A stretch of DNA of 41,664 nucleotides from Anaerolineaceae bacterium (GTDB taxonomy: Bacteria > Chloroflexota > Anaerolineae > Anaerolineales > Anaerolineaceae). Below are positions 5,212 to 33,992 of the stretch, one piece after another. Location: NCBI GenBank assembly GCA_011620555.1, contig WOYY01000079.1:1-41664 (forward strand). The letters are read 5' to 3'. Position numbers and translations under genes: made by a program. The notes under the pieces were generated by a model. It made no database searches. It saw only the letters and a list, made by a program, of their open reading frames with translations, and was not told where the DNA came from. Numbering within the stretch: the first letter of the stretch is position 1; each line of letters begins with the position of its first letter.

Positions 5212-5489
5212 ATGATCGACGTCGGTTGGTAGGGACTGTCATCAGCAATAAGATGCAGAAAACCGCTGTGGTTGAGGTTGTGCGCGTTTATCGGCACCCC
5301 CTTTACCGCAAGGTGGTCCGCAGCGGAAAGACTTATAAAGCGCATGATGAGCTGGGTGTGAGCCCAGGCGATAAAGTTAGAATCGTTGAAAGCAAACCGA
5401 TTTCACGCACGAAACATTGGGTCGTTGAAGAGATCCTGCGTGTGGAAGAGCGGTCTGAAGATGACTTAGTGGAAGAATTGGGAGTCTGA
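5208..5489 (+). CDS. rpsQ: 30S ribosomal protein S17
   Basis: The 93-residue OB-fold protein has the S17 motifs LVGTVISNKMQKTAVVEV and the conserved GDKVRIVESKPISRTKHW near residue 55. S17 binds 16S rRNA early in 30S assembly. The tail after residue 77 is acidic. It overlaps rpmC by four bases and lies three bases before rplN. Confidence 0.98.
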   Translation: MNDRRRLVGTVISNKMQKTAVVEVVRVYRHPLYRKVVRSGKTYKAHDELGVSPGDKVRIVESKPISRTKHWVVEEILRVEERSEDDLVEELGV

Positions 5490-5492
5490 GTC

Positions 5493-5864
5493 ATGATCCA
5501 ACAAGAAACACGATTGAAAGTTGCCGATAACACCGGCGCTCGCGAAATCCTGGTGATCCATATCTCCGGTGGTTCCCGACAGCGCTATGGCTATGTCGGA
5601 GACATCGTTGTGGGCACGGTCAAATCCGCGACCCCCCAGGCGACAGTCAAGAAGAGCGAGATCGTCAAGGCCGTCATCGTCCGGGCCGCCAAGGAATGGC
5701 GCCGCGCTGATGGCTCCCTGATCCGCTTTGATGATAATGCCGCTGTGATTTTGGATAATGATGGCGTCAACCCCCGTGGTTCACGTATCTTTGGCCCTGT
5801 TGCCCGTGAGCTTCGTGAGAAAGGCTTCATGAAGATCGTTTCGCTGGCACCGGAAGTGCTTTAG
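5493..5864 (+). CDS. rplN: 50S ribosomal protein L14
   Basis: The 123-residue product begins [18 protein letters not shown] and ends with [25 protein letters not shown], both textbook L14 segments. L14 lies at the subunit interface, contacting 16S rRNA helix 14, and is the binding site of silencing factor RsfS. Length and neighbours are normal. Confidence 0.98.
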
Positions 5865-5886
5865 TCGGTGAGATAGGAGTAAAGAT

Positions 5887-6213
5887 ATGAAAACCAGAAT
5901 TAAAAAAGGCGACAAGGTCATGGTGGTCAGCGGCAACGACAAGGGTAAGGTTGGTGAAGTTATCCGAGTGCTGCCGTCAGAAAACCGGGTGGTGGTGCAG
6001 GGCGTCAACGTGCGCATCAAGCACCAGGCCCAGACTCAGTCCCGCGGCAAGACCATCCCGGCTGGCAAGATTGAGTTCGAAGCGCCGATCAATATTTCCA
6101 ACGTGATGCTGGTGGACCCCAAGAACAATAAACCCACCCGCATCTCCGTGACCCGTAAAGATGGCAAGCCGGTGCGCGTCGCAAAGCGCAGCGGCACGGC
6201 GATCGATAAATAA
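5887..6213 (+). CDS. rplX: 50S ribosomal protein L24
   Basis: The 108-residue product has an N-terminal KOW motif ([20 protein letters not shown], residues 6-25) followed by [12 protein letters not shown], as in L24. L24 starts assembly of the large subunit near the tunnel exit. The ribosome site ggagt precedes the ATG. Confidence 0.98.
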
Positions 6214-6232
6214 GGCGCTATTGGGAGTAAGT

Positions 6233-6775
6233 ATGAATAGACTACGAGAGCTTTACAATACAGAGATCGCACCTGCCCTTTTCGAGGAATTATCCCTCGA
6301 AAATGTGATGCAGATCCCGAAGATCCAGAAGGTTGTGGTCAATATTGGTGTCGGCGACGCATTGGATAATCCCAAAGCATTGGACGAGGCGGTTCAGGAC
6401 CTGACCATCATCACAGGCCAGAGGCCGGTCGTCACCAAAGCGAAGAAATCCATTGCGAACTTCAAATTACGTGAAGGGCGCGCAATTGGCACCAAGGTCA
6501 CTCTGCGCGGTGATAAGATGTGGGCGTTTCTTGATCGTCTGATCAATGTGGCCCTGCCCCGTGTCCGTGACTTCCGCGGTATCTCGGCCGATTCTTTTGA
6601 CGGCCGGGGAAACTACACGCTGGGTCTGGATGAACAACTGATCTTCCCTGAGATCAACTACGACCAGGTCGATGCGATCCGAGGTATGGAGATCACGATT
6701 GTGACCACAGCAGAGAATGACGATCAGGCACATGCGCTGCTGAGTAAATTCGATATGCCGTTCAGGAAAGGATAG
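6233..6775 (+). CDS. rplE: 50S ribosomal protein L5
   Basis: The frame is open from 6161, but the start is set at the ATG at 6233 because it follows gggagt at 6223-6228, lies after the rplX stop and gives the standard L5 opening [19 protein letters not shown]. The 180-residue product contains [11 protein letters not shown] and [18 protein letters not shown], which are family signatures. L5 binds 5S rRNA and the P-site tRNA. It ends one base before rpsN. Confidence 0.97.
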
Positions 6776-6776
6776 T

Positions 6777-6959
6777 ATGGCTAGTAAATGTATGGAGTAT
6801 CGCGAAAAACGGCGGAAATATCCCACTCAGGTCGTTAACCGCTGCCGTCGCTGTGGGCGCCCACGTGGTTATATCCGCAAGTTTGGTTTGTGCCGTATTT
6901 GTTTTCGGGAATTAGCACTGCAAGGGAAAATTCCTGGTGTTACCAAGTCGTCGTGGTAG
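6777..6959 (+). CDS. rpsN: 30S ribosomal protein S14, zinc-binding form
   Basis: This is the short 60-residue S14 with four cysteines at positions 23, 26, 39 and 42 (CRRCGRPRG and CRICF). That is the zinc-ribbon type, also called type Z, in contrast to the longer zinc-free form. It helps build the 30S head. It starts one base after the rplE stop. No zinc-free replacement copy is in the window. Confidence 0.97.
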
Positions 6960-6978
6960 ATCGGCGGAGGTATTTTCG

Positions 6979-7392
6979 ATGAGTGTATCAGATCCAATTA
7001 GCGATATGCTGACCCGTATCCGCAACGTTGCTATCAGCAATGGTACAGTTGCAAGCATGCCCAGCTCCAAGATCAAGGCTGAAATCGCCCGGATTTTGAC
7101 CGAAGAGGGCTACCTGGATAGCTATGAAGTTGTTGAAGGCAGTCAGCCTTATCAGAAGATTTTACGCATTCGGTTGAAATATATCGGTGAACGACGCGAC
7201 CGCCGCCCGTTGATTACGGGTTTGGAGCGGGTGAGCCGTCCCGGCCGCCGAGTGTATTCCAAGAAGACGGACATCCCCTGGGTGCTTTCGGGTATTGGTG
7301 TGGCGATTCTGTCCACCCCTAAGGGTGTTATGACTGGCCAGCGCGCTCGCAAGATGGGCGTGGGCGGCGAGATATTATGTAAGGTTTGGTAG
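6979..7392 (+). CDS. rpsH: 30S ribosomal protein S8
   Basis: The frame is open further upstream (6937), but the ATG at 6979 follows ggcggagg at 6963-6970 and gives the usual opening SVSDPISDMLTRIRN. The 137-residue product ends with ARKMGVGGEILCKVW, close to the family C-terminus. S8 binds helix 21 of 16S rRNA and represses the spc operon in E. coli. Its role as a repressor here is unknown. Confidence 0.97.
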   Translation: MSVSDPISDMLTRIRNVAISNGTVASMPSSKIKAEIARILTEEGYLDSYEVVEGSQPYQKILRIRLKYIGERRDRRPLITGLERVSRPGRRVYSKKTDIPWVLSGIGVAILSTPKGVMTGQRARKMGVGGEILCKVW

Positions 7393-7419
7393 CGCCTGGC
7401 GCTATAGGAGGTACGAGAC

Positions 7420-7965
7420 GTGTCTCGAGTAGGACGTTTACCGATAGATGTGCCAGCGGGTGTTGAAGTCAAGATTGATGGCTCCTACGTCCATGTTAAA
7501 GGCCCCAAAGGTGAATTGGAATGGACCTTTTCACCCGATATCACCATTAAACAGGAAGATGGCGTGATCTTCATTGATCGCTCATCGGACGAGCCTCTTC
7601 AACGTGCGCTGCACGGCACAACCCGGGCTTTGATCAACAACATGGTGACGGGCGTTAGCACGGGCTTTGAGCGGATCCTTGAGATCGAAGGCGTGGGTTA
7701 CCGCGCTGAGTTGGACGGCAAAAATCTCATTGTCAATGTAGGTTTTTCGCATCCGGTGGTTGTTGAACCCCCCGAGGGGATTAGCTTTGATGTGGATATG
7801 AAAGTTCGCCAGATCAAGATAGCCGGATATGACAAACAGGTGGTTGGGCAGGTCGCTGCGGACATTCGCAAACTGCGCCCACCTGAGCCCTATAAAGGCA
7901 AGGGTATTCGCTATCAGGGCGAATATGTGCGTCGTAAACCGGGTAAGGCCGGCAAGACAGTATAA
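7420..7965 (+). CDS. rplF: 50S ribosomal protein L6
   Basis: Translation starts at GTG 7420, just after a strong taggaggta ribosome site at 7405-7413. The 181-residue product opens SRVGRLPIDVPAGVEV and ends with RPPEPYKGKGIRYQGEYVRRKPGKAGKT, a classic L6 tail. L6 lies near the sarcin-ricin loop and helps the elongation factors dock. Confidence 0.98.
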   Translation: MSRVGRLPIDVPAGVEVKIDGSYVHVKGPKGELEWTFSPDITIKQEDGVIFIDRSSDEPLQRALHGTTRALINNMVTGVSTGFERILEIEGVGYRAELDGKNLIVNVGFSHPVVVEPPEGISFDVDMKVRQIKIAGYDKQVVGQVAADIRKLRPPEPYKGKGIRYQGEYVRRKPGKAGKTV

Positions 7966-7983
7966 GTGTGAAGGTGAAATAAT

Positions 7984-8349
7984 ATGGCAAAAAAATCACG
8001 CAATCAGGCACGTTTACGCCGACACCTGCGGGTGAGAAAAAAGATTTTTGGTACACCCGAACGGCCGCGCATGAACGTTTTTCGAAGTTCGACTCAGATT
8101 TATGTTCAGATCATTGATGATTTCCAGGGACATACCTTGGCCTCTGCTTCAAGTATTGATGCTGAATTGGCTGGCTCCATGAAGGGACTGACCAATTTGG
8201 AACAGGCGGAAAAAGTTGGCAAGGCAATTGCTGAGCGCGCCAAGAAGGCTGGAATCGACAGCGTGGTCTTTGATCGTGGTGGATACAAGTACATCGGTCG
8301 GGTGAAAGCCCTGGCCGAGGCGGCCCGCGAGGGCGGGTTGGATTTCTAG
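7984..8349 (+). CDS. rplR: 50S ribosomal protein L18
   Basis: The 121-residue product has the basic N-terminus [20 protein letters not shown] and the core [15 protein letters not shown], with the C-terminal [27 protein letters not shown]18 binds 5S rRNA together with L5. Its position between rplF and rpsE is the normal spc order. Confidence 0.98.
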
Positions 8350-8362
8350 GAAAGAGGCGATT

Positions 8363-8884
8363 ATGACAGACTACCAAGGCGAGAACCAATATGATGAGCG
8401 CGTGATCGACATTGCGCGTGTGGCAAAAGTTGTAAAAGGTGGTCGCCGCTTTTCATTTCGGGTGACCATGGTGATTGGCGACAATAATGGGCGTGTCGGT
8501 CTGGGCATTGGTAAAGCGAATGCCGTTCCGGATGCGATCCGCAAAGCCAGTGAACGTGCCCGTAAGGACATGCACAAAGTCAACCTCAACGGAACCACGA
8601 TCTCACATGAGGTCATTGGCAGGCAGAGCGGCGCCAAGGTGTTGCTCCGCCCGGCGGCTGCCGGTACCGGCGTTATTGCTGGCGGCGGCGTCCGCGCCGT
8701 GTTGGAAGCCGTCGGCGTCCATGACATTCTCACCAAATCTCTGGGCAGCAACAACATCCTGAATGTTGTTCGGGCGACCTTTGATGCGCTGGACCAGCTG
8801 AAATCCGTCAAGGAACAGGCTGCCTATCGTGGAAAGCCCCTTGACCAGGTGAAACCCTATTGGGAGCGCGAATCCAATGGCTAA
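8363..8884 (+). CDS. rpsE: 30S ribosomal protein S5
   Basis: The 173-residue product has a double-stranded RNA-binding N-domain with [19 protein letters not shown] and the central [17 protein letters not shown]. The C-domain has [21 protein letters not shown]5 affects decoding accuracy. Its last eight bases overlap the rpmD start, which suggests coupled translation. Confidence 0.98.
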
Positions 8885-9071
8885 GAAAAAACAAGCACAA
8901 TTATCAATTACATTAGTTCGCAGCCCAATTGGCTATCCCAAACGGCAGAAAGCCACTTTGAAAGCCCTGGGCCTTAAGAAAATCAATCAGACAGTGATCC
9001 GGGTTGATAACGAAGCCGTGCGCGGCATGGTGAACGCCGTTATCCATCTGGTGAACGTGGATCAAGCGTAA
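8877..9071 (+). CDS. rpmD: 50S ribosomal protein L30
   Basis: The 64-residue product contains [23 protein letters not shown] and VNAVIHLV, the bacterial L30 pattern. The start ATG at 8877 lies inside the 3' end of rpsE (8-base overlap), and rplO begins 9 bases after the stop. The order rpsE-rpmD-rplO is standard. Confidence 0.97.
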
Positions 9072-9080
9072 GGTGTCATT

Positions 9081-9536
9081 ATGGAATTACATGATCTAAA
9101 GCCAAACAAAGGCGCCCACAAGGACCGCAAGCGGGTTGGCCGTGGTCCCGGGGCCGGCCAGGGTAAAACAGCCGGCCGGGGTACGAAAGGCCAAAAATCC
9201 CGGTCAAGCGGCGGCGTGCCTCTCTACCACCAGGGTGGTAACCTTCCGTACTTCCGGAAGCTACCCTTCATGCGTGGTGAAGGTTTCACGGTCCACAATC
9301 GTGTGGAATATGAAGAAGTCAATCTGGAAGATTTGGCGGATTTCGCCGTAGACACTGAGGTGACCCCCGAATTGATGGTTGAAAATGGCCTGGTGAAGAA
9401 ACTGGGACTCCCTGTGAAGATCCTCGGGCGGGGCGATGTTTCCATTGCTTTGAAGGTGAAAGCAAACAAGATTTCCAAGAGCGCGCAGGAAAAGATCGAA
9501 CGCGCTGGCGGAAGTGTTGAGCTTATCCAGGATTAA
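9081..9536 (+). CDS. rplO: 50S ribosomal protein L15
   Basis: The 151-residue product has the glycine-rich N-terminal extension typical of L15 (KRVGRGPGAGQGKTAGRGTKGQKSRS at about 17-43), which threads into 23S rRNA, followed by a globular C-terminal half with LPVKILGRGDVS. It lies directly upstream of secY, as in most bacteria. Confidence 0.98.
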   Translation: MELHDLKPNKGAHKDRKRVGRGPGAGQGKTAGRGTKGQKSRSSGGVPLYHQGGNLPYFRKLPFMRGEGFTVHNRVEYEEVNLEDLADFAVDTEVTPELMVENGLVKKLGLPVKILGRGDVSIALKVKANKISKSAQEKIERAGGSVELIQD

Positions 9537-24791: not shown

Positions 24792-24813
24792 AAGGCACCT
24801 TGCGAGGTGCCTT
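24792..24813 (-). terminator. Terminator of the acyl-transfer operon
   Basis: A 9-bp stem is formed by 24792-24800 (aaggcacct) and 24805-24813 (aggtgcctt) with loop tgcg. Read on the minus strand it is followed by the T-rich cttaatttaatt. It lies 26 bases downstream of the ligase stop at 24839. Confidence 0.7.
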
Positions 24814-24838
24814 GACTGCTTTGAGCCTGACTTTCGGG

Positions 24839-26518
24839 TCAGACGATGGTCAGACCGGTTTCTTTCAGGAATTTATCCCGGTTTGCCAGGCGGGCCGTCT
24901 TGCCGGAGCTGGTCTTGATGATCCAGCCATCCTCCACCAGGTGCACATGGCGCAAGGCCACGGCTGAATCCTGGGTGACGACCTGGCGAATCTCATTGGC
25001 GATCCGCTGTTTCTCGTCGGGGTCATCGGTATCCACCTCGGCCACCAGCATGACCTGTTCGGTGCCCATCTTTGGCGAGAAGATGCCGAAGGCCACGGCC
25101 CGGCCGGGATGCACGCCGGGGACGGTGTAGGCGATCCGTTCAATGTCTTGCGGGTAGATGTTCTTCCCGCCGACGATGATCAGGTCTTTCTTGCGGCCGC
25201 TGATGTAGACTTCGCCATCCAGCATATAGCCAAAGTCCCCGGTCAGATACCAGCCGTCAAGGAAGGCTTTTTTGGTGGCTTCCGGGCGGTGATAGTATTC
25301 CGTGAGCATGCAGTCTGACAAGAGGGCGATTTCGCCGATCTGCCGGTCTGGCAGGGAATTGCCTTCCGGGTCCACAATTTTGACCTGGGTGTTGGGGATC
25401 GGCTTGCCCGCGGAGACCATGTCGATCGAGGGCTGGCCTTCCACAGCGGGGCGGGCGATCCGGTCGATCTGGAGGGAGTCCCGGTCCACGGAGTCGATCC
25501 GCACGGGGGTGTCCACGCCGCCCTGGGTGACGGCAAAGGTGTTTTCGGCCATGGCATAGCTGGTGCCCAGGGCGCTTTCCCTGAAGCCATAGGGCTTGAA
25601 AGCCTCCAGGAAGAGCTGCTGGCTGTCATGCCGCATCGGTTCGGAACAATTGGTCACCAGCCGCCAGGAGGAAAGGTCAAGGCCTTCCATGTGGCGGGGG
25701 CGGATCTTGGTGGCGCAGAAGTTATAGGCAAAGTTCGGCAGCCAGACGAGGGTGCCCTTGTATTGGCTGACGGCCTGCATCAGGCGCTGGGGCGCACGGA
25801 CCCAGTCGAAGGGGGACATCAGCACCAGCGGCAGGCCATAGAGGATCGGCATCAGGAAGCCGGCGATCAGACCCATGTCATGATAGAGCGGCAGCCAGCT
25901 GACCAGCACATCCGATTTCGGGTCGATATGCAGGACATCGGCATAGGTGCGGACCTGGTTGAGGACGGCCTGGTGGGAGAGGGCAACGCCCTTCTGCAGG
26001 CCGGTGGTGCCGGAGGAATGCTGCAGCAGGGCGATATCTTCCGGCTGGCGGCGGTTGAGGTCGAAGAGCGGTTCGCCGCCTTCTCCCAGTTCCTCCGCAA
26101 TCATCACGGTGCGGACGGAGTCCTCTTCTTTGAGGGCAGCCCGGACTTCCGGCTCAAATTCTGCGTAGGTGAAAATTGCTGAAGGCTGGGTCACCTCGAT
26201 CAGCGCGGCCAGATCCCGGCGGTAGCGCTCCGGCTGGAGCTTTTCCGTCAGGTAGGGCATGATGGAGGGGATGGCGCCGTGCAGGAGTGTGCCGAAATAG
26301 GTGCGGATCAGGTCCTGCCCGTGCTGGAAGATCAGCAGCACCACCTCGCCGGGCTGGATGCCTTCCGCTTCCAGCCTGCGCTGGGCGCCCACCGCGCTGG
26401 AGAGCAGCTGGCGGACGGTGATCGGCCGGTCTTCTTCGCCGGCGTGCTGCAGGTAGATCGCAACCTCATCCGGCCGGTTTTCATAGTGGTTTTTGAGAAT
26501 GTGGTGGAACGTCTGCAT
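24839..26518 (-). CDS. Acyl-AMP ligase of the FAAL type
   Basis: The 559-residue adenylate-forming enzyme has the ATP loop LLQHSSGTTGLQKGV at about 164-178, the FAAL/FACL motif SWLPLYHDMGLI at 207-218, an ETF-like SYAMAENTF, then DGWYLTGDFGYM and SGRKKDLIIVGGKNIYPQDIE, and the C-terminal lysine in KTSSGK at about residue 540. Such enzymes activate a carboxylic acid with ATP and, in the FAAL branch, hand it to an acyl carrier protein. The carrier gene is directly upstream with a shared base (TAATG). In the Dlt analogy it takes the place of DltA; its acid substrate cannot be told from sequence. It is the last gene of the operon. Confidence 0.88.
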   Translation of the reverse strand: MQTFHHILKNHYENRPDEVAIYLQHAGEEDRPITVRQLLSSAVGAQRRLEAEGIQPGEVVLLIFQHGQDLIRTYFGTLLHGAIPSIMPYLTEKLQPERYRRDLAALIEVTQPSAIFTYAEFEPEVRAALKEEDSVRTVMIAEELGEGGEPLFDLNRRQPEDIALLQHSSGTTGLQKGVALSHQAVLNQVRTYADVLHIDPKSDVLVSWLPLYHDMGLIAGFLMPILYGLPLVLMSPFDWVRAPQRLMQAVSQYKGTLVWLPNFAYNFCATKIRPRHMEGLDLSSWRLVTNCSEPMRHDSQQLFLEAFKPYGFRESALGTSYAMAENTFAVTQGGVDTPVRIDSVDRDSLQIDRIARPAVEGQPSIDMVSAGKPIPNTQVKIVDPEGNSLPDRQIGEIALLSDCMLTEYYHRPEATKKAFLDGWYLTGDFGYMLDGEVYISGRKKDLIIVGGKNIYPQDIERIAYTVPGVHPGRAVAFGIFSPKMGTEQVMLVAEVDTDDPDEKQRIANEIRQVVTQDSAVALRHVHLVEDGWIIKTSSGKTARLANRDKFLKETGLTIV

Positions 26519-26769
26519 TAAGCGTCCTGGCGTTCGATAATCAGATCGGCCAATTGATTCAGGGTGTCAAAGGAGTCCGCGTTCAGCTCTGTGTCGTCAA
26601 TATGGACGTCAAAGTTATCTTCAACGAATAAGGCGACATCCACCAGGCTGAAGGAATCGATCAGCCCGCTGGAGATCAGCGCTTCGTCGGCCTTGATCTC
26701 ACGCTCGGGTTGCTGCAGGACTTCTTCTCGCAGGTAGGCTTCCAGTTTTTTAATGATTTCGCTTTTCAT
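26518..26769 (-). CDS. Acyl carrier protein
   Basis: The 83-residue acidic helical protein has GLIDSFSLVDVALFVED, in which Ser39 in DSF is the phosphopantetheine attachment site (most carriers have DSL). ATG 26769 is chosen because the ribosome site gaggaga lies upstream; the frame also has a TTG at 26787 that overlaps this site. The stop shares one base with the ligase start. It is the expected acceptor of the acyl group made by the ligase and, by analogy with DltC, the donor to the MBOAT protein. Confidence 0.92.
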   Translation of the reverse strand: MKSEIIKKLEAYLREEVLQQPEREIKADEALISSGLIDSFSLVDVALFVEDNFDVHIDDTELNADSFDTLNQLADLIIERQDA

Positions 26770-26845
26770 TTGATTTTGTCTCCTCAATCAGATTTTTTCA
26801 TGCCACCCAGGTTCTCTTAGGCGACAATCCTGTGTATTTTACCAC

Positions 26846-27994
26846 CTACGGCGCAAGCAACTGCTCCAGCGCGGGCTTCAGGGCTTCATAGTAGGCCTGA
26901 GAGCCGGCGGGGGTCAGATGGACCGCGGAATTGGTGAATTCGGTTTCGGGGACGCTATCCCAAAGGTCGAGATAAGCCCAATCGGACAGGCTGGCATCCT
27001 CCGCCAGCCAGGCGCGGTATTGGTCATAGGCCCAGCGGGGGTAGAAGAAGTTATAGCGGATGGCGCTGTTTTCGCCGGCGCTGACCAGGATCGGTTCGTT
27101 GACCACCAGCACGGGCACATCCCCGGCCAGGCTGGCCCCAGCCCTGAGGGCCGTGGTCAGCAGGTCTGCCTGCTGCATTTCTCCCGGCGCCCACCCGGCA
27201 AAGGCGGTGTTATCCGCTTCAAAATCGCGTTGGGCGGGAGTGTAGTCGGTGGGATAGGTCTGGTCGATCCCGGTGGCCGCCCACATCATGCCGTAGAACT
27301 GGAGTTGAAGGGCATCAAAGAGGGTGCGTCGGCGGCCGATCAGGGTGCGGTCCCAATAGGTGGTCTGGGTGAACGCCGAAAGATCGTCTTTCAGAGGCAG
27401 ATCGTATGTTTCGATCAGCGGAATCACCCGCTGGGGGTTGTTGGCGACCAGGGGCGTTTCAACCTGGATTGAGTTGGGGAAAGATTGCAGGGTCACTGGC
27501 CAGAGGATCAGGTCCGGCTCATAGGTCAGGGCTTTTTCGAGGATCATCAGGTCCTTGGCGATGGACATGGAGGGGTAGGCCAGGTTATAGGCCCGCACGG
27601 TCCGGCCGTCGCTGGCGGTCAGCCCGTCGGCGTTGATCAGGCCGCTGAGGGTGTCCTGTGGTTCGAGCAGGGTTCCCCAGGTGGCGCTGTCGCCGATCAG
27701 GATGATGCGGTATTCGTCGGCCGGCTTCGGACCGGCATGGATCTCATGGGAGGCGAACATCGCTTCCAGGTCGTAGAGGCTGAGGTTATAGGCCTCAGCG
27801 GGGTTCTCGCCGAAGGGCAGCCGCACCCGGCCGGGCCAAACTCGGTTGTAGAGCGAAAGGCTGCCCCAGGTGTTCCCGACCGGGATCAGGCCGACCGCAA
27901 AATTGAGGATCAGGAACAGCAGCAGACCTTTAACCAGCACATTGCGGATGAATTGGGCGGTGGATTTTGTTTCAGGTTGTTTTTCTTCAGTCAT
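26846..27994 (-). CDS. Membrane-anchored SGNH-fold protein with intact GDS motif
   Basis: The 382-residue protein has a cytoplasmic tail of about 20 residues, one transmembrane helix (about 21-40, GLLLFLILNFAVGLIPVG) and an extracellular domain. IILIGDSATWGTLLE places the SGNH nucleophile at Ser103; a histidine occurs near the end in NSAVHLTPAG (His359), although the residue three before it is Ser rather than Asp. This topology is like DltD, PatB or AlgJ/AlgX, partners of MBOAT proteins. In this operon it is the best candidate for the final acyl transfer to an envelope polymer. Confidence 0.75.
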   Translation of the reverse strand: MTEEKQPETKSTAQFIRNVLVKGLLLFLILNFAVGLIPVGNTWGSLSLYNRVWPGRVRLPFGENPAEAYNLSLYDLEAMFASHEIHAGPKPADEYRIILIGDSATWGTLLEPQDTLSGLINADGLTASDGRTVRAYNLAYPSMSIAKDLMILEKALTYEPDLILWPVTLQSFPNSIQVETPLVANNPQRVIPLIETYDLPLKDDLSAFTQTTYWDRTLIGRRRTLFDALQLQFYGMMWAATGIDQTYPTDYTPAQRDFEADNTAFAGWAPGEMQQADLLTTALRAGASLAGDVPVLVVNEPILVSAGENSAIRYNFFYPRWAYDQYRAWLAEDASLSDWAYLDLWDSVPETEFTNSAVHLTPAGSQAYYEALKPALEQLLAP

Positions 27995-28026
27995 GGGTTA
28001 TTTCTCTTGCGATCCAGGCGGGCAGG

Positions 28027-28962
28027 TCATTCGGCGTGGGTCAGTTGCTGCCGCAGGCTGTCGAGCAGTTCCAGGGCGGAGAGGTTGCGGGTGTCCCAGG
28101 CCTGATAGCTGAGGTAAACATTCTCGCGGTCCTTATCCAGCCCGCCATTGGGCAGGTCCTGCACGGTCGCCCAGAAGTTCCAAAGCGGGAGGTGGCGGTC
28201 ATAGGCCACCTGGGCCATCGCCAGGTTGCGGCTGTAATCGCCCTCGGAATTATCGGCTTTGGTGGAGAGCACCGGCAGGACGCCCTGCTCCAGAAGGATA
28301 TCAACGATCTGGTTAAGATAGGCGATGTAATCCTCCTGCGAGGTGGAGGGGTTCCAGTTGGTGCCCAGGCTGATCAGCACCAGGGAAGGGTTGGAGAGGC
28401 GCACTTCGCAGTCCACCGGGGTCTCTGTGGTGTCGCAGAGGTCCGGGTCGCTCCAATAGGGGTTGAGCGCGCTGGGGGCGGTCATCCCGTTCTTGACGGT
28501 GATGCTGCGGTGCACAAAGGAGCCGGCGTACCAGTCGATGGTCTCCTGCAGCGCTTCCCGGCCTTCCGGCAGGGTGTAGCGGTTTTCGTCATATTTGCTG
28601 AGGAAATAGGTCGGCGAGCTTTGGCAGTCGCCGATCACTGAGAAGACCTGGGCATCCCGGCCCAGTTCCTGCCCGAGGGCGTAGACCTCGAAGGCAGCGG
28701 GTTCAAGGTCCGGGATCACGGGCCAATCCTGCCAGGCCTCCGGTTTGAGGCGGGTATCCGGGGTGGCGGTGGGGACGGCTGTTTCGGTTGGCGTGGGCAT
28801 CAGGGTGCCTGTGGGGGTCAGCGTGGATTTAGCGGGGGCCGCGGCTGTTTGGGTGGGTTGCTCTGTGACGGGCGAGGTGGATTGCGGCGCGCAGCCAGCG
28901 ACCAGCACAGCAGCCAGCAATACCGTGGTCAGAAGCGTTTTCCGAGGGAGCTGGCCGGTCAT
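28027..28962 (-). CDS. SGNH-like lipoprotein with GDC block
   Basis: The 311-residue lipoprotein has a signal ending LVAGC (Cys24), a Thr/Pro-rich linker to about residue 70, then an SGNH-like domain. Block I reads VIGDCQS (111-113 GDC), so the usual Ser is Cys. Block III has ISLGTNW (200-202 GTN). The expected final Asp-x-x-His is ENVY (280-283). A paralogue lies at 30946-32979 and shares WQ-x-WPV-x-P, STKADN-x-EGD and PLWNFW. The start overlaps the MBOAT stop (ATGA). It may be a pseudo-enzyme, a binding partner or a cysteine-based acyl carrier. Confidence 0.7.
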   Translation of the reverse strand: MTGQLPRKTLLTTVLLAAVLVAGCAPQSTSPVTEQPTQTAAAPAKSTLTPTGTLMPTPTETAVPTATPDTRLKPEAWQDWPVIPDLEPAAFEVYALGQELGRDAQVFSVIGDCQSSPTYFLSKYDENRYTLPEGREALQETIDWYAGSFVHRSITVKNGMTAPSALNPYWSDPDLCDTTETPVDCEVRLSNPSLVLISLGTNWNPSTSQEDYIAYLNQIVDILLEQGVLPVLSTKADNSEGDYSRNLAMAQVAYDRHLPLWNFWATVQDLPNGGLDKDRENVYLSYQAWDTRNLSALELLDSLRQQLTHAE

Positions 28963-30386
28963 GCGATCCTAAACAGCTTTCCGAAAGTCTCCAGGGCCAG
29001 CGCCGGGGTGGGGAGGGCGAACCAGATCCAGCCCAGGCTGACGAAGACGAAGTTGAAGGCGACGCCGCTGAGGTGGAGGACCTTGTCCAGAGCCGGGCGC
29101 TTCGTAACCAGGGCGGCCCTCTTCGGGCTGGTATAGCTGCTCCAGCGGTTATGGATGAAAAGCCCCAGGCCGTGCCAGAGGCCCCAGATGATGAAGTTGG
29201 GCGTGATCCCGTGCCAGAGGCCTATCACCAGCATCGTGCTGACCTGGGTGATAAAAATGACCAGGGGCGCGGGCAGCTTTTTATTTTTGCGCAGCGCGCG
29301 GGTGACCGGGTTGAAGAAGTAACCCCGGACCCATTGGGTCAGGGTCATGTGCCAATTATTCCAAAATTGGGTCAGGTTGGGCTGGCGGTAGGGATGGTTG
29401 AAGTTTTCCGGCAGGGTGAAGCCCAGCAGGCGGCCCACCCCGATGGCAATGTCGCTGTAGCCGGCGAAATCGAAATAAAGCTGGAAGCTGTAGGCGGCCA
29501 GCATCAGCCAGAGCCAGCCCGCCGAGCGCACCTGGGTGACGTTGGCGGCGATGATGGCGACCAGCGCGAGCGTGTCGGCCAGGATGAACTTGCGGAAAAG
29601 GCCGGCCGCCAGGCGTGTGCCGCTGGTCCGGAGTTCCTCCGCATCCAAAGGCTGGGGGTCGTTCAAGTCCTTGCGGAACCGCTGGAGCCGATCCAACGGG
29701 CCGGCCAGGAAGGTCGGGAAGAAGATCGTGTAGATCAGCACTTCATCCAGGCCCATTTCCTTGAGGCGGCCGTTCATCCGGTCGATCAGGGTGTGGATCA
29801 GGCGGAAGGCCACATAGGAGAAGCCCAGCCAGCCCAGGTCGCTTGGCAGCGCCAGGCTTTTGTCCTGGCCCATCAGGCTGCGCAGGCCAGTGCTGGAAAG
29901 GCTTGCCAGGGCAGGGGTTTTCAGCAGGACGAAGATCACCAGGATCAGCAAAACGCCCGCCGTCAGGGCTGGGCGAGTGGGCTGGAGGAAGCGCACCAGC
30001 AGGGCCGCCAGGAGAGCGATGACCAGCAGGGCGATCAGCACGGATGAGAACTGGGGCGGCCGGGAAGCCGTCAGGACCCCCTGGAGGCTGACAAAGCGCA
30101 ACAGGGCCAATAGCAGAACGGTCCCGAGGGCCAGGGCGGCGGCGAGCTGGTTTTGCCGGGCTTTGAGCTGTTCCTTTTCAGCCGTCAGCGCCCAGCTGGC
30201 CAGCACGAGGCCGAGGGTGGCGGTGGGGAACCAGAAATCCATCTGGCGGATGGGGAGGCTGGGCTGCAGCCAAAAGATCGCAAGGACAGAGCTGACCAGC
30301 AGCGCCCAGCGCCGCAGCTTCCCCGGGAAGAGAAGCCGCAGCGCCAGGGCAGCGGCGATCAGGATCAGGATATTGAGCAATGACAT
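28959..30386 (-). CDS. MBOAT-family O-acyltransferase (DltB/AlgI-like)
   Basis: The 475-residue polytopic membrane protein has about ten hydrophobic segments. The MBOAT hallmarks are YFDFAGYSDIAIGVGRLLGF, then QFWNNWHMTLTQWVRGYF with His346, and IGLWHGITPNFIIWGLWHG with His392, the likely catalytic histidine. Proteins of this group move acyl groups across or onto envelope polymers and work with an SGNH partner. The ATG directly follows the stop of a 42-residue microprotein (TAAATG). It overlaps the next gene by four bases. Confidence 0.9.
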   Translation of the reverse strand: MSLLNILILIAAALALRLLFPGKLRRWALLVSSVLAIFWLQPSLPIRQMDFWFPTATLGLVLASWALTAEKEQLKARQNQLAAALALGTVLLLALLRFVSLQGVLTASRPPQFSSVLIALLVIALLAALLVRFLQPTRPALTAGVLLILVIFVLLKTPALASLSSTGLRSLMGQDKSLALPSDLGWLGFSYVAFRLIHTLIDRMNGRLKEMGLDEVLIYTIFFPTFLAGPLDRLQRFRKDLNDPQPLDAEELRTSGTRLAAGLFRKFILADTLALVAIIAANVTQVRSAGWLWLMLAAYSFQLYFDFAGYSDIAIGVGRLLGFTLPENFNHPYRQPNLTQFWNNWHMTLTQWVRGYFFNPVTRALRKNKKLPAPLVIFITQVSTMLVIGLWHGITPNFIIWGLWHGLGLFIHNRWSSYTSPKRAALVTKRPALDKVLHLSGVAFNFVFVSLGWIWFALPTPALALETFGKLFRIA

Positions 30387-30515
30387 TTAGAAACCCTGAT
30401 AGATCCAGAGCGGCGACCTATCTGCGCTGTAGATCACAAGAATGGCAATCAACAGGCAGAGCAGCAACGCCCAGAGGTTTTCTTTGGTGAAGAGATGGTC
30501 CTTAAGCCAGCGCAA
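30387..30515 (-). CDS. DltX-like membrane microprotein
   Basis: A 42-residue frame starts at TTG 30515 with ribosome site GGAG six bases upstream (30525-30522) and ends at TAA 30389-30387, directly before the MBOAT ATG. The N-terminal part is basic and polar (RWLKDHLFTKEN), one transmembrane helix follows (LWALLLCLLIAILVIYSA), and the C-terminus is SPLWIYQGF. DltX, the microprotein of the Dlt system, has the same layout and a C-terminal aromatic motif of the type F-x-Y-x-x-F whose Tyr is linked to acyl transfer. The match W-I-Y-Q-G-F is short, so the assignment rests on the motif, topology and position. Confidence 0.65.
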   Translation of the reverse strand: MRWLKDHLFTKENLWALLLCLLIAILVIYSADRSPLWIYQGF

Positions 30516-30529
30516 AGGTCACTCCGGCT

Positions 30530-30925
30530 TTATTCGTAACCGCAGAGGCGCCAATCGCCGCCATCTTTGACCACGATGAAGGTGCGGCCGCTGAGGGGGA
30601 ATTCCCGGGCTTCGCCGTTATAGCTGGCGGAGATGGAGCCTTCGCAGGTGACCCGGGCAGTGTCGCCCTCTTCGCTGACGGTCTGGCAGGTCGCATCCAC
30701 CAGTTCGGTGTCAACGCTCACGAAGCTGTCCAGTTCGAGGAGGGCCTGCGATTCCCAATCGGCACAGGTATAGCTGATCAGTTCTTCCTGGTTCTTATCG
30801 ACCAGGGCCTGCTGATAGAGCAGGACGGTTTGAGCAGGGGCATCCTGCCCGCCGGCGCAGGCCGAGAGGGCCAGGCCGAACAGGGCAACAAGCCCGATGA
30901 GGTAGAGCCACTTTTGATTTTTCAT
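30530..30925 (-). CDS. Small secreted lipoprotein
   Basis: The 131-residue product has a lipoprotein signal ending LALSAC (Cys23) and a small domain starting QTVLLYQQALVDKNQEELISY, with three further cysteines (in SYTC, DATC and VTCEG) and a fourth in the last residues LCGYE. The layout resembles DUF4878/NTF2-like lipoproteins, but I cannot assign it firmly. The frame is open to 30961, but ATG 30925 has ggagga upstream and places the signal peptide at the start. It follows the SGNH/propeller gene after about 20 bases and precedes the microprotein by 14. Confidence 0.7.
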   Translation of the reverse strand: MKNQKWLYLIGLVALFGLALSACAGGQDAPAQTVLLYQQALVDKNQEELISYTCADWESQALLELDSFVSVDTELVDATCQTVSEEGDTARVTCEGSISASYNGEAREFPLSGRTFIVVKDGGDWRLCGYE

Positions 30926-30945
30926 GTTTTGTCGTCCTCCATTAA

Positions 30946-32979
30946 TTAGGGTGTGATCCAATAGATTTTATCCAAAGTGATGAAATCTGTGGAAGTGATC
31001 GAGAGGGTGCTATCCAGGTTATCGAACAAACCCGAGCCCAGGTTCATCTGGCGGAAAAGCAGCTGATAGCTGCCATCATCGGCAGCCAGAGTTGAGGTCA
31101 GGAAGAGCTGATCGGCCGCGGTGTTCCAGGCCACGCGGGGGTTGAGGCCGGGGAAGGCATAATATTCAAGCTGGTTCATAACTGCCGGGTTGACCACGAA
31201 GATGCGGGCATCGCCGGATTTACCGGTGTAATCATCCCGGGTCTTGGAGAGCAGAACCACATCGCTGCTGTCCGGGGACCATTCGAGCGCGACCGCCCGG
31301 TTGCCCGGCAGGTAAAGGTAGTTCTGGTAACTCTTGTCGGTTGCGCCAATATAAAGGATCTGGGTGGTGTCCTCGGTGTTCTCGACCCAGGCCATTTCCA
31401 GCCCTGTGCCGGAAAGCGCAAGGTTGGGTTGCCCCAGGAATTCCTCCGGCCCCTTGGCCCCATTGGTCCAGACGGTGTTATCTTCGCAGGCGGCCTCCGC
31501 CGGGCAGAGGCCCTGATACCAGAAGAAGCGGGTATCTCCGGTGGGTTTGATCAGGCCGGAGATCTGCCCCGCGGCAACCTGAGTCCAGTTGTCATTGGCC
31601 GGGTCCACCAGCCAAACGGCCTGGTTCTCGCCTTCAGCGGTGAGCACCAGCAGGCGCAGGTCATCGGGCAGCCAGAAAGCGCTTGCGTTGCGGCCGGTGA
31701 CCGCCAGTTTATCCGTCACCACCGTGATGTTGCCGTTGGGGTCGCTGATGGAGAGCTTGCTGCCCTGGCTGACCAGGAGCTTGGTGCCGCTTGGGTCCAC
31801 ATCCTGCAGCTGGTAGCCCGCTTCCAGGACCTGATAGAGGGCTTGGGTCGCCAGGTCATAGGTGAAGACGCCCAGGTTCTGGCTGGCTTCACCGCTGCGC
31901 TGCTCGAGGGAGAAGACCAGACGTGGGTTCCCAGCGACGACCGCCGGGCTGGCGGGGGCGGGGCTGATGGCGACTTCGGCAAAGGCGACATCGGGCGTGG
32001 GGGTTGCCACGGGGGTCAGATCGGCGGTTGTCTCATCCCGGACGCCGCGCCAGACCGCATCCAGCGCCTGCAGGGCGGTGAAACTGCGGACCGTCCAGGC
32101 TTCATAACTGATGTGGAAGCCGTCCCGGTTGGGGTCGATGCCGTGGTTGGGCATGGATTGGACGGCCAGCCAGAAATTCCACAGGGGGATGTGGTATTCG
32201 TAGGCCAGCCGGGCGGTCGCCAGGTTGATGCGATGATCGCCTTCAACGTTATCGGCTTTGGTGGAGAGGATCGGCACCACGCCGTTATCAAGGTAGTACT
32301 CGATGATGGTGCGCATGTATTCTTCATAGCGTTCCACCGTGCGGCCGGCCCACCAGACTTCGAGGCTGATGATGACGAAGGAGGGGTTGTGCACCCGGTT
32401 TTCGCATTCGATCGGGTTCTCGCCGGGCTGGCAGACTTCCGGGTCGGCCCAGACCGGGGAGAGGACGGCGGCCGTATTGAAACCGCCGCGGACGGCCTGA
32501 CCGTCCCGGTTGAAGGAGCCGCTGAAGTTCTCGATCGTTTCCTGAAGGAAGGCATTCTGCTCGGTGATGGTGTAGCGGCTGGGTTGGTCGTAGATGCCCA
32601 TCAGCACCTGCTTGATCGCCTGGCAGTCGCCCACTTTGGAGAAGCTTTTGGGGTCATTGCCCAGCGCCAGGCCGTATTGATAGATCGCTTTTTCACGCCC
32701 GGTCAGCTCCGGGACCACCGGCCATTCCTGCCAGCGCTCGGGCGGAAGCCGATTTTCGACAATCGGGATTTCCGTCGGGGGAATGACGGTGGGTGTGGGG
32801 GATTCGATGGTTTCGGCGATTTGTTCAAGGGGCAGGGTCTCTGTTGGAGCAACAGCCTCATTTTCATTTGGATCGGTTGAGGCAGGCAGGGCTGGCCCAG
32901 GCACTTTGCAACTGGTCAGAACCAGCGTTGCCACGATCAGTAAGACGAGCACCCGATAAATTGAGCTCGTGCGCATCAT
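30946..32979 (-). CDS. SGNH-like/beta-propeller lipoprotein with GDC block
   Basis: The 677-residue lipoprotein (signal ending LVLTSC, Cys24) has a Pro/Thr/Glu-rich linker, an SGNH-like domain at about 75-310, and a C-terminal region of about 335 residues with repeated blades of the TolB/WD40 kind (VFTYDLATQALYQVLE, LEWSPDSSDVVLLS, PRVAWNTAADQLFLTS). Block I is KVGDCQA (117-119 GDC); the block III position reads SLEVWW without GxN; DGFHISYEAW keeps an Asp-x-x-His (286-289). It is a paralogue of the gene at 28027-28962. ATG 32979 follows aaagga; a second ATG is adjacent. It is the first gene of the acyl-transfer operon. Confidence 0.7.
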   Translation of the reverse strand: MMRTSSIYRVLVLLIVATLVLTSCKVPGPALPASTDPNENEAVAPTETLPLEQIAETIESPTPTVIPPTEIPIVENRLPPERWQEWPVVPELTGREKAIYQYGLALGNDPKSFSKVGDCQAIKQVLMGIYDQPSRYTITEQNAFLQETIENFSGSFNRDGQAVRGGFNTAAVLSPVWADPEVCQPGENPIECENRVHNPSFVIISLEVWWAGRTVERYEEYMRTIIEYYLDNGVVPILSTKADNVEGDHRINLATARLAYEYHIPLWNFWLAVQSMPNHGIDPNRDGFHISYEAWTVRSFTALQALDAVWRGVRDETTADLTPVATPTPDVAFAEVAISPAPASPAVVAGNPRLVFSLEQRSGEASQNLGVFTYDLATQALYQVLEAGYQLQDVDPSGTKLLVSQGSKLSISDPNGNITVVTDKLAVTGRNASAFWLPDDLRLLVLTAEGENQAVWLVDPANDNWTQVAAGQISGLIKPTGDTRFFWYQGLCPAEAACEDNTVWTNGAKGPEEFLGQPNLALSGTGLEMAWVENTEDTTQILYIGATDKSYQNYLYLPGNRAVALEWSPDSSDVVLLSKTRDDYTGKSGDARIFVVNPAVMNQLEYYAFPGLNPRVAWNTAADQLFLTSTLAADDGSYQLLFRQMNLGSGLFDNLDSTLSITSTDFITLDKIYWITP

Positions 32980-33076
32980 TTGTCCTTTCAAAACACCACT
33001 TCCCCTGGTGAAGGACCGTTATTGGTAAAGGGAAGGGTGTGGGAAATTAATTTCAGACAAAAATTGTCCGCTACGA

Positions 33077-33085
33077 ATTATAACA
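33077..33085 (-). promoter_or_regulatory. Extended -10 promoter of the acyl-transfer operon
   Basis: On the minus strand TGTTATAAT is a perfect extended -10. A weak TTTTGC lies 17 bases upstream. Transcription would start near 33070 and give a leader of about 90 bases before ATG 32979. Confidence 0.6.
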
Positions 33086-33227: not shown

Positions 33228-33992
33228 ATGAATAAGACCTTGAATCGAATTCTGATCGTGGGGTCGCTCCTGCTGACCCTGGGTGTCAATTTTCTGGCCA
33301 ATGCCCTCCCATTGAACGGCCTGAGTACCGGCGAGATCTCGGATTCCTTCCCGATCCTGTTTGTGCCGGCTGGCTATGTCTTTTCGATCTGGGGGCTGAT
33401 CTACTTGAGTTTGTCCGCTTTTGCCATCTACAGCGTCACGAAGGCCGGCCTGGCTGATCCGCGGGTGGATGCGATTGCCGGGTGGTTCGCGCTTTCCAAC
33501 ATTTTCAACCTGGTCTGGATTTTCCTGTGGCACTATTTACAGTTCACCCTCACTTTGATCCCGATCCTGGGCCTGCTCATCAGCCTTGTGGTCATCTATT
33601 TGAAGCTGCGGGCGGGGGGTGAGGCGCAGGACTGGCAGGGGAAATATCTGGTGAACCTGCCTTTCAGCATTTACCTGGGCTGGGCGACGGTGGCCGTGGT
33701 TGCCAATATCTCGCAGGGGCTCTACGCTCTGGGCTGGCGCGGCGCGCCGCTGACCGAAGCGCTTTGGGCTGTGATCCTGCTGGCCGTGGCTACCCTGCTG
33801 GGCGTTTTGATGATCTTCCTGCGGAAAGAGGTGGCCTACCCCTTAGTGCTGGTCTGGGCTTTTGTGGGGATCTGGGTCAAGCAGGCCGCGACCCCGCTGG
33901 TGGCGACCACGGCGCTGGCGGGCGCGATTCTGTTAGGCGTGCTGGCGCTGGGGCGGTGGGCCGGGGCTGGGCTTTCTGCGAGGAAAGGGTAG
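33228..33992 (+). CDS. TspO/MBR-like membrane protein
   Basis: The 254-residue protein has about seven hydrophobic segments and the pattern FVPAGYVFSIWGLIYLSLSAFAIY, close to the TspO/tryptophan-rich sensory protein signature, with further Trp-rich helices (LSNIFNLVWIFLWHYLQFTL, YLGWATVAVVANISQ). It is longer than the usual 160-residue TspO and belongs to an enlarged group of such proteins. TspO proteins bind porphyrins and other hydrophobic ligands; the ligand here is unknown. It is divergent from the acyl-transfer operon. Confidence 0.65.
   Translation: MNKTLNRILIVGSLLLTLGVNFLANALPLNGLSTGEISDSFPILFVPAGYVFSIWGLIYLSLSAFAIYSVTKAGLADPRVDAIAGWFALSNIFNLVWIFLWHYLQFTLTLIPILGLLISLVVIYLKLRAGGEAQDWQGKYLVNLPFSIYLGWATVAVVANISQGLYALGWRGAPLTEALWAVILLAVATLLGVLMIFLRKEVAYPLVLVWAFVGIWVKQAATPLVATTALAGAILLGVLALGRWAGAGLSARKG

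Follow-up and report, generated by a model that had tools for sequence, protein, structure and literature searches.

Locus Organization

The stretch analyzed here (the window) comprises 41,664 nucleotides of contig WOYY01000079.1 from an Anaerolineaceae bacterium (GenBank assembly GCA_011620555.1). Reading of the sequence and its open reading frames (ORFs) identified eight genes between positions 24839 and 32991, all on the minus strand, co-directional and closely packed. An earlier note on this DNA had proposed that they encode a Dlt-like envelope acylation system, and each of the genes it listed was confirmed, so that all Dlt-type functional parts are present. In transcriptional order (5′ to 3′), the genes encode a 681-aa lipoprotein, a 131-aa lipoprotein, a microprotein, an MBOAT acyltransferase, a 311-aa lipoprotein, a membrane-anchored SGNH protein, an acyl carrier protein, and a ligase. 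They are listed below by position, with the evidence for each assignment.

24839..26518, minus strand: FAAL-type (fatty acyl-AMP ligase-type) adenylate-forming ligase, 559 aa (PF00501, 3.1e-53)
26518..26769, minus strand: acyl carrier protein, 83 aa, phosphopantetheine site at Ser39 (PF00550, 9.8e-6)
26846..27994, minus strand: membrane-anchored SGNH protein, 382 aa (AF2 model, fold comparison, conserved residues)
28027..28962, minus strand: SGNH-fold lipoprotein, 311 aa (AF2 model, VIA, residues)
28959..30386, minus strand: MBOAT acyltransferase, 475 aa (PF03062, 5e-24)
30387..30515, minus strand: one-helix microprotein, 42 aa, TTG start (sequence, codon conservation, linkage)
30530..30925, minus strand: small NTF2/SnoaL-like lipoprotein, 131 aa (weak family matches, same-strand relatives)
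30946..32991, minus strand: lipoprotein, 681 aa, with an N-terminal SGNH domain and a C-terminal part (homology)

The microprotein lies directly before the MBOAT gene, as had been claimed, with no base between the microprotein stop and the MBOAT start. At its other end, the MBOAT gene overlaps the downstream gene (28027..28962) by 4 nt, and the carrier stop and the ligase ATG have one base in common. Lipoprotein signals were judged by eye from the sequence. The genome that contains the window is 96% complete, and a Pfam search for MBOAT proteins in it returned this one alone.

An MBOAT Lineage Apart from DltB

The MBOAT matched one NCBIfam model at E up to 0.1, TIGR04091 (LTA_dltB; 3.3e-67), with 227.4 bits against a cut-off of 375. 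The DltB encoded at locus L202, which belongs to another genome of the class (G089), scored 446.3 bits with the same model. Structures of DltB were the only solved relatives found (1e-42), and His346 and His392, invariant in all 86 aligned rows, both align with His residues of DltB. Together with an identical parts list, these matches speak for a divergent member of the Dlt family that D-alanylates a teichoic-acid-like polymer.

The phylogeny argued otherwise. A tree of 35 MBOATs separated three groups: DltB (3 rows, support 100/100), MBOATs with a shuttle motif fused to their C-terminus (9 rows, 100/97), and a new clade (23 rows, 98/97) consisting of a core of 21 rows (93/88) plus two outlying members. 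The tree took 21 of the 86 aligned clade MBOATs and excluded L201, L080, and L097, which are truncated or have a broken frame, and L204, which lacks a motif end; its root position is not known, and we make no claim on the order in which the arrangements arose. Plain Dlt was rejected from this tree together with the model cut-offs, as none of the five Dlt models (DltA, B, C, X, and D) was passed at its cut-off by the window components. The same genome that provided the DltB control carries both kinds of system. Its L202 locus (5337-9421) is a canonical dlt locus with DltD, a microprotein ending in TPKFIYQGF, DltA, and DltB, in which DltA, DltB, and DltD all exceed their family cut-offs, and the same contig carries a new-clade MBOAT, a WIYQGF microprotein, a carrier, and a ligase (L042). 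In G089, the membrane SGNH protein nearest to that of the new system is on another contig (38% identity). With the FAAL-type ligase described below, these results make the divergent Dlt explanation very unlikely.

The window MBOAT ends in KLFRIA and has no fused C-terminal shuttle motif of the PatA/AlgI type. Ten further non-dlt MBOAT ORFs from the class were examined, and 9 of them end in FIYFQF, FVYQGF, or similar; the L204 protein is the one that does not. In BLAST comparisons, the window MBOAT was 29-37% identical to fused-type MBOATs over 224-356 aa and 28-33% identical to canonical DltB over 244-369 aa (two truncated pieces, 62 and 87 aa long, gave 39% and 32%). On the tree and alignments, the MBOAT is a lineage of its own that groups neither with DltB nor with the fused-motif MBOATs. 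Elsewhere, in G027, a pair of MBOATs ending in fused FIYFQF motifs is found approximately 2-3 kb upstream of the new system (L205 6885-10013).

The Microprotein and Its Putative Shuttle Motif

The microprotein starts at a TTG (30513-30515) with a GGAG 6 nt upstream, and its 42 residues include one hydrophobic segment and a C-terminus reading SPLWIYQGF. A 2025 paper (PMC12148441) describes the acyl group of DltX and PatA as carried on the Tyr of a shuttle motif, FXYXXF. WIYQGF fits this motif except for W in place of F at position 1, which makes Tyr39 the candidate shuttle residue.

Among 101 distinct DNA sequences of the family (98 proteins), pairwise differences at codon positions 1, 2, and 3 were 0.39, 0.19, and 0.58, with position 2 the most conserved. 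Invariance of the hexapeptide in this set was imposed by the search pattern, and one short hit (L061) was dropped. Outside the searched motif, Glu at position −31 was kept in 99 sequences, Asn −30 in 93, and Ala −27 in 100; Pro at −8 was kept in 101/101, although some loci were chosen by a pattern that includes this Pro. A DNA search pattern covering the end of the microprotein matched 70 of 298 class genomes, and the reversed control pattern 1 of 298 (G008). On this control, together with the co-occurrence described below, chance or artefact was rejected, and by its codon pattern and conservation the microprotein is a real coding gene. A profile search of the PDB with the microprotein gave nothing reliable.

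Both outliers of the MBOAT clade (L208 and L209/L149) are accompanied by microproteins ending in FIYQGF, and in sequence these ends are intermediate between the DltX type and the WIYQGF type. DltX-like FIYQGF microproteins were also seen outside the classical Gram-positives, in records from Verrucomicrobiota and Gemmatimonadetes (L097, L125, L129); in L097 and L125, a ligase and an MBOAT come after the microprotein.

Ligase and Carrier Protein

The earlier note had suggested a FAAL-like ligase in place of DltA, and the comparisons bore this out. The best NCBIfam match was PRK09192, a fatty acyl-AMP ligase (2.5e-113; 379 bits against a cut-off of 600). The ten best solved relatives included FadD32 chains and 3pbk, a fatty acyl-adenylate ligase, and residues 30-552 aligned without net loss to 3kxw, the best solved relative. 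Most of the listed CoA-ligase matches break or begin near residues 338-370; the CoA ligase 3a9u aligned to residues 49-543 in a single stretch, but with 34 residues fewer. The window ligase thus resembles FAALs such as FadD32 and 3pbk along most of the chain, and the similarity extends to an extra segment, some 30 residues long, that is absent from most CoA ligases. Nearest relatives and extra segment both point to FAAL membership, though at scores below the curated NCBIfam cut-offs. It differs from those FAALs in its apparent partner, a stand-alone carrier encoded beside an MBOAT. The KTSSGK end of the ligase is conserved.

With the DltA model TIGR01734 (cut-off 559.85), the window ligase scored 33.5 bits and the L202 DltA 570.9. 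The best score in the window's own genome was 84.2, at another place, and no DltA above the cut-off was found there. The carrier likewise scored 24.4 bits with the DltC model TIGR01688 (cut-off 52.35). Its Ser39 (LIDSF) was kept in 40/40 aligned rows, the window's included. Because the ligase aligns with FAAL-type structures, our best guess is that it loads the carrier rather than CoA and that its substrate is a fatty acid. The proposal that the acyl group is probably not D-Ala survives on the same comparisons.

SGNH Proteins and Lipoproteins

The AlphaFold (AF2) model of the membrane-anchored protein (26846-27994; pLDDT 91) showed an N-terminal helix (12-36) followed by an SGNH fold, with VIA Z scores up to 17.0 to solved SGNH enzymes (an E. 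coli thioesterase I chain). Across aligned rows, the GDS serine Ser103 was kept in 68/68, Asp343 in 67/68, and His359 in 68/68. Fold, block I Ser, and catalytic Asp and His all place the protein in the SGNH superfamily. Its fold resembles that of DltD. In a Foldseek search DltD (3bma) ranked 13th (E 7.6e-4) behind general SGNH esterases, PF04914 gave no match at E up to 10 (the L202 control reached 4.6e-51), and a profile search of the PDB returned nothing reliable. We consider this protein the likely counterpart of DltD and PatB and the proposed terminal acyltransferase. At what we take, from general motif patterns, to be the block II and III positions, residue 142 is not Gly and Thr168 replaces Asn, which is no more than a hint of a transferase-like site.

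Of the three lipoproteins, two had been described as SGNH-like, which held for both. The model of 28027-28962 (pLDDT 86) gave VIA Z scores up to 15.8 to solved SGNH enzymes, and the 681-aa protein was recognized by homology, with 42% identity over 286 aa to a relative of the SGNH lipoprotein family in L032. The former has GDC instead of GDS and Tyr instead of the catalytic His; the SGNH domain of the latter also has GDC and keeps DGFH. The C-terminal part of the 681-aa protein (30946-31974) had no Pfam match and no usable solved relative. Matches of the third lipoprotein to Rv0361_Cterm (2.6e-6) and DUF4440 (0.002) were both weak and below cut-offs.

An alignment of 68 SGNH lipoprotein rows, the window's two included with relatives in L032-L151, had Cys at the block I position in 32, Ser in 35, and a gap in 1. 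On a tree of 67 of these proteins, the Ser/Cys distribution requires 2 changes. The block III Asn-Asp was changed in 28/32 Cys rows vs. 2/35 Ser rows, and His was lost in 6 Cys rows. The GDC lipoproteins may have a changed nucleophile or may be pseudoenzymes. The acyl group is said to run downhill from thioester to Tyr to Ser (PMC12148441). Extending this ourselves, a Cys thioester after Tyr would be a step back, and the lipoproteins would therefore serve binding or editing rather than the main transfer. With Cys for Ser and a changed block III in most Cys rows, a role as the main transferase is disfavored, and the window's two SGNH lipoproteins are probably accessories.

Co-Occurrence, Linkage, and Distribution

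We surveyed 298 genomes of the class Anaerolineae. Any MBOAT match occurred in 98 of them, and the MBOAT clade was defined by our own cut of at least 223 bits; the ligase was counted at E 1e-100, the membrane SGNH protein at E 1e-20, and the microprotein by its end pattern. The four parts were found in 70 (MBOAT), 70 (microprotein), 71 (ligase), and 69 (membrane SGNH) genomes, with pairwise overlaps of 63-68 genomes. Among the 79 genomes with any part, 60 had all four, 9 had three, 3 had two, and 7 had one. MBOAT and microprotein occurred together in 68 genomes (p 3e-62), and ligase and MBOAT in 65 (p 4e-52), with the MBOAT alone in 5 and the ligase alone in 6; both p values ignore shared ancestry. 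The microprotein was upstream of the MBOAT on the same strand in 63/70 genomes and within 330 nt in 53/70.

Loci were fetched for the MBOAT in 40 of the 70 genomes. A WIYQ[GN]F microprotein lay near the MBOAT in 36 of these, and on the MBOAT strand we counted a membrane SGNH gene in 30, carrier in 22, ligase in 21, NTF2-like in 18, and SGNH lipoprotein in 18. In many loci, carrier and ligase stand directly behind the SGNH gene. The scattering of the genes in relatives, which the earlier note had named as evidence that would overturn it, was seen in part: gene order is often kept, and some genes are dispersed but still co-occur. Linkage is often lost yet co-occurrence is kept, and the parts therefore appear to belong to one pathway.

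This pattern bears on a second explanation, namely O-acetylation of the PatAB/AlgIJ type in which the shuttle helix has split off and the FAAL and carrier belong to another, nearby lipid pathway. The slightly closer BLAST similarity of the window MBOAT to fused-type MBOATs than to canonical DltB would fit. The association of ligase and MBOAT across 65 genomes, which holds also where they sit on separate contigs, and the frequent placement of carrier and ligase behind the SGNH gene argue against it, and we regard it as unlikely.

The SGNH gene was detected in 34 of 400 genomes of the phylum, all 34 in the same class, the share of the 400 from outside the class not being shown. The microprotein pattern scan gave at least 120 stretches, and 80 loci were listed from it. 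Among the loci listed, those with WIYQGF followed by a clade-type MBOAT carried Chloroflexota-type titles, with one (L132) titled ‘uncultured bacterium’. Other hits were FIYQGF ends of Dlt-type loci (L080, L084, L097, L125), the FIYQGF beside a clade MBOAT in L149, and WIYQGF ends with no MBOAT within the stretch of DNA covered (L118, L126, L151); the remainder were cut (L129) or chance. As far as sampled, the putative relay is confined to Anaerolineae.

Proposed Relay and Relation to Known Systems

We propose, with a probability of roughly 70%, that the locus encodes a relay for acyl groups across the membrane, which follows the Dlt plan but is assembled from non-Dlt parts. By analogy with the families concerned, the FAAL-type ligase would use ATP to activate a carboxylic acid (a fatty acid being most likely) and load it on the carrier. 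At the cytoplasmic face, the MBOAT would take over the acyl group from the carrier and pass it to Tyr39 of the WIYQGF tail at the outer face. For this transfer, the parts, the motif, and their co-occurrence are observed, and the step itself follows the DltX/PatA precedent. The membrane-anchored SGNH protein would then accept the acyl group on Ser103 and hand it on to an acceptor in the envelope, for which a glycan is the likeliest candidate; the lipoproteins might, as a guess, bind or trim the product. This order of transfer, from the thioester on the carrier via Tyr and Ser to the acceptor, is modeled on work on Dlt and PatAB.

Several observations weigh against this proposal. The function of the relay is predicted from sequence. 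The identity of the acyl group is drawn solely from the ligase type, and the NCBIfam FAAL models match the ligase only below their cut-offs. Two of the 70 MBOAT genomes (G201, G260) lack the microprotein pattern, and in 5 the microprotein is on another contig. Ligase and carrier are beside the MBOAT in just 21/40 and 22/40 fetched loci, some of which are cut by contig ends. The DltX model PF12459 (cut-off 25 bits) did not match the window microprotein, and of 65 family members (the window's and 64 WIYQGF relatives) it matched 1, at E 0.14. Of four FIYQGF microproteins of other loci used as controls, three gave 34.1, 22.4, and 22.0 bits and one gave no match, and L149 gave 14.2 bits; PF12459 itself is therefore weak on distant DltX.

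As to the acceptor, no polymer-synthesis family was seen near the loci among the 25 families listed of 184 (133/155 flanking ORFs, 20 loci), where the flanking families were generic, PCRF (7) and SRP54 (5) foremost. Of the earlier suggestion of a related machine decorating another envelope polymer, the Dlt-like machine stood and the polymer is still conjectural, as the flanks gave no hint. The target could instead be lipoproteins, lipids, or glycolipids, with no polymer involved. The three lipoproteins in the operon and the generic flanks are compatible with this; conversely, the MBOAT/SGNH pairs treated in PMC12148441 have envelope glycans or teichoic acids as their targets, and each of the two lipoprotein types was linked in less than half of the 40 loci. 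We hold a non-polymer target to be a minority possibility, and an envelope glycan is retained as the preferred acceptor.

The new system has in common with Dlt (DltX-A-B-C-D) a ligase, a carrier, an MBOAT, a separate one-helix microprotein with a C-terminal motif, and a membrane-anchored SGNH protein. It differs in its FAAL-type ligase, its extra lipoproteins, parts that fall under the Dlt model cut-offs, and the usual position of the microprotein directly before the MBOAT, whereas in canonical loci (L200, L202, L125) it precedes the ligase. With PatAB, AlgIJ, and WssHI O-acetylation systems it has in common the MBOAT-SGNH pair and an FXYXXF-type acyl-Tyr shuttle. In those systems, according to PMC12148441, the motif forms a fused part of the MBOAT itself, with neither carrier nor microprotein present; the new system has both. 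Carrier and microprotein are presented there as a Dlt peculiarity, with acyl-CoA and a fused motif used elsewhere, and MBOAT/SGNH pathways other than Dlt are said to lack them (PMC12148441, 2025). At the sequence level, the new system is a counterexample to that statement. By gene content it is conserved and coherent: it follows the layout of the Dlt relay, but its ligase, carrier, microprotein, MBOAT lineage, and SGNH protein all differ from those of Dlt. In the papers listed by searches on DltX, MBOAT/SGNH acyl shuttles, FAALs, and Anaerolineae, considered by title and abstract start, we found no description of it.

A more specific reading, to which we give even odds, is a third class of MBOAT/SGNH relay, neither Dlt nor Pat/Alg, in which a FAAL-loaded carrier and a microprotein acyl-Tyr would lead to a fatty-acylated envelope glycan and Cys-SGNH lipoproteins would have been recruited in some lineages to bind or edit the product. 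If true, these bacteria would have fatty-acylated surface polymers. More broadly, finding a carrier, a microprotein, and a FAAL together in a lineage of its own suggests that a change of ligase may swap the donor. It also points to envelope material being fatty-acylated in a bacterial class that is large and little studied. The three natural MBOAT arrangements in one class, together with the dlt and new loci of G089, offer material on the choice of MBOATs between carrier and CoA donors and on how the shuttle helix is held.

Transcription Signals and Neighboring Features

Two candidate signals flank the eight genes.

33077..33085, minus strand: extended −10 promoter-like TGTTATAAT (read from sequence)
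24792..24813, minus strand: terminator-like stem-loop, 9 pairs (stem scan)

The earlier note had described one run from promoter to terminator. Both signals are present, but TGTTATAAT at 33077-33085 was not among the sites from a two-hexamer promoter scan, and the stem was one of 9 such sites found vs. 8.7 expected in shuffles. Transcript ends at these two positions are plausible. In one relative, an apparent tandem duplication of the MBOAT and membrane SGNH genes was seen (G208:C7:10493-15604). In the window, the divergently oriented neighbor (33228-33992, plus strand) showed a weak similarity to TspO/MBR (E 1e-4, under the cut-off).

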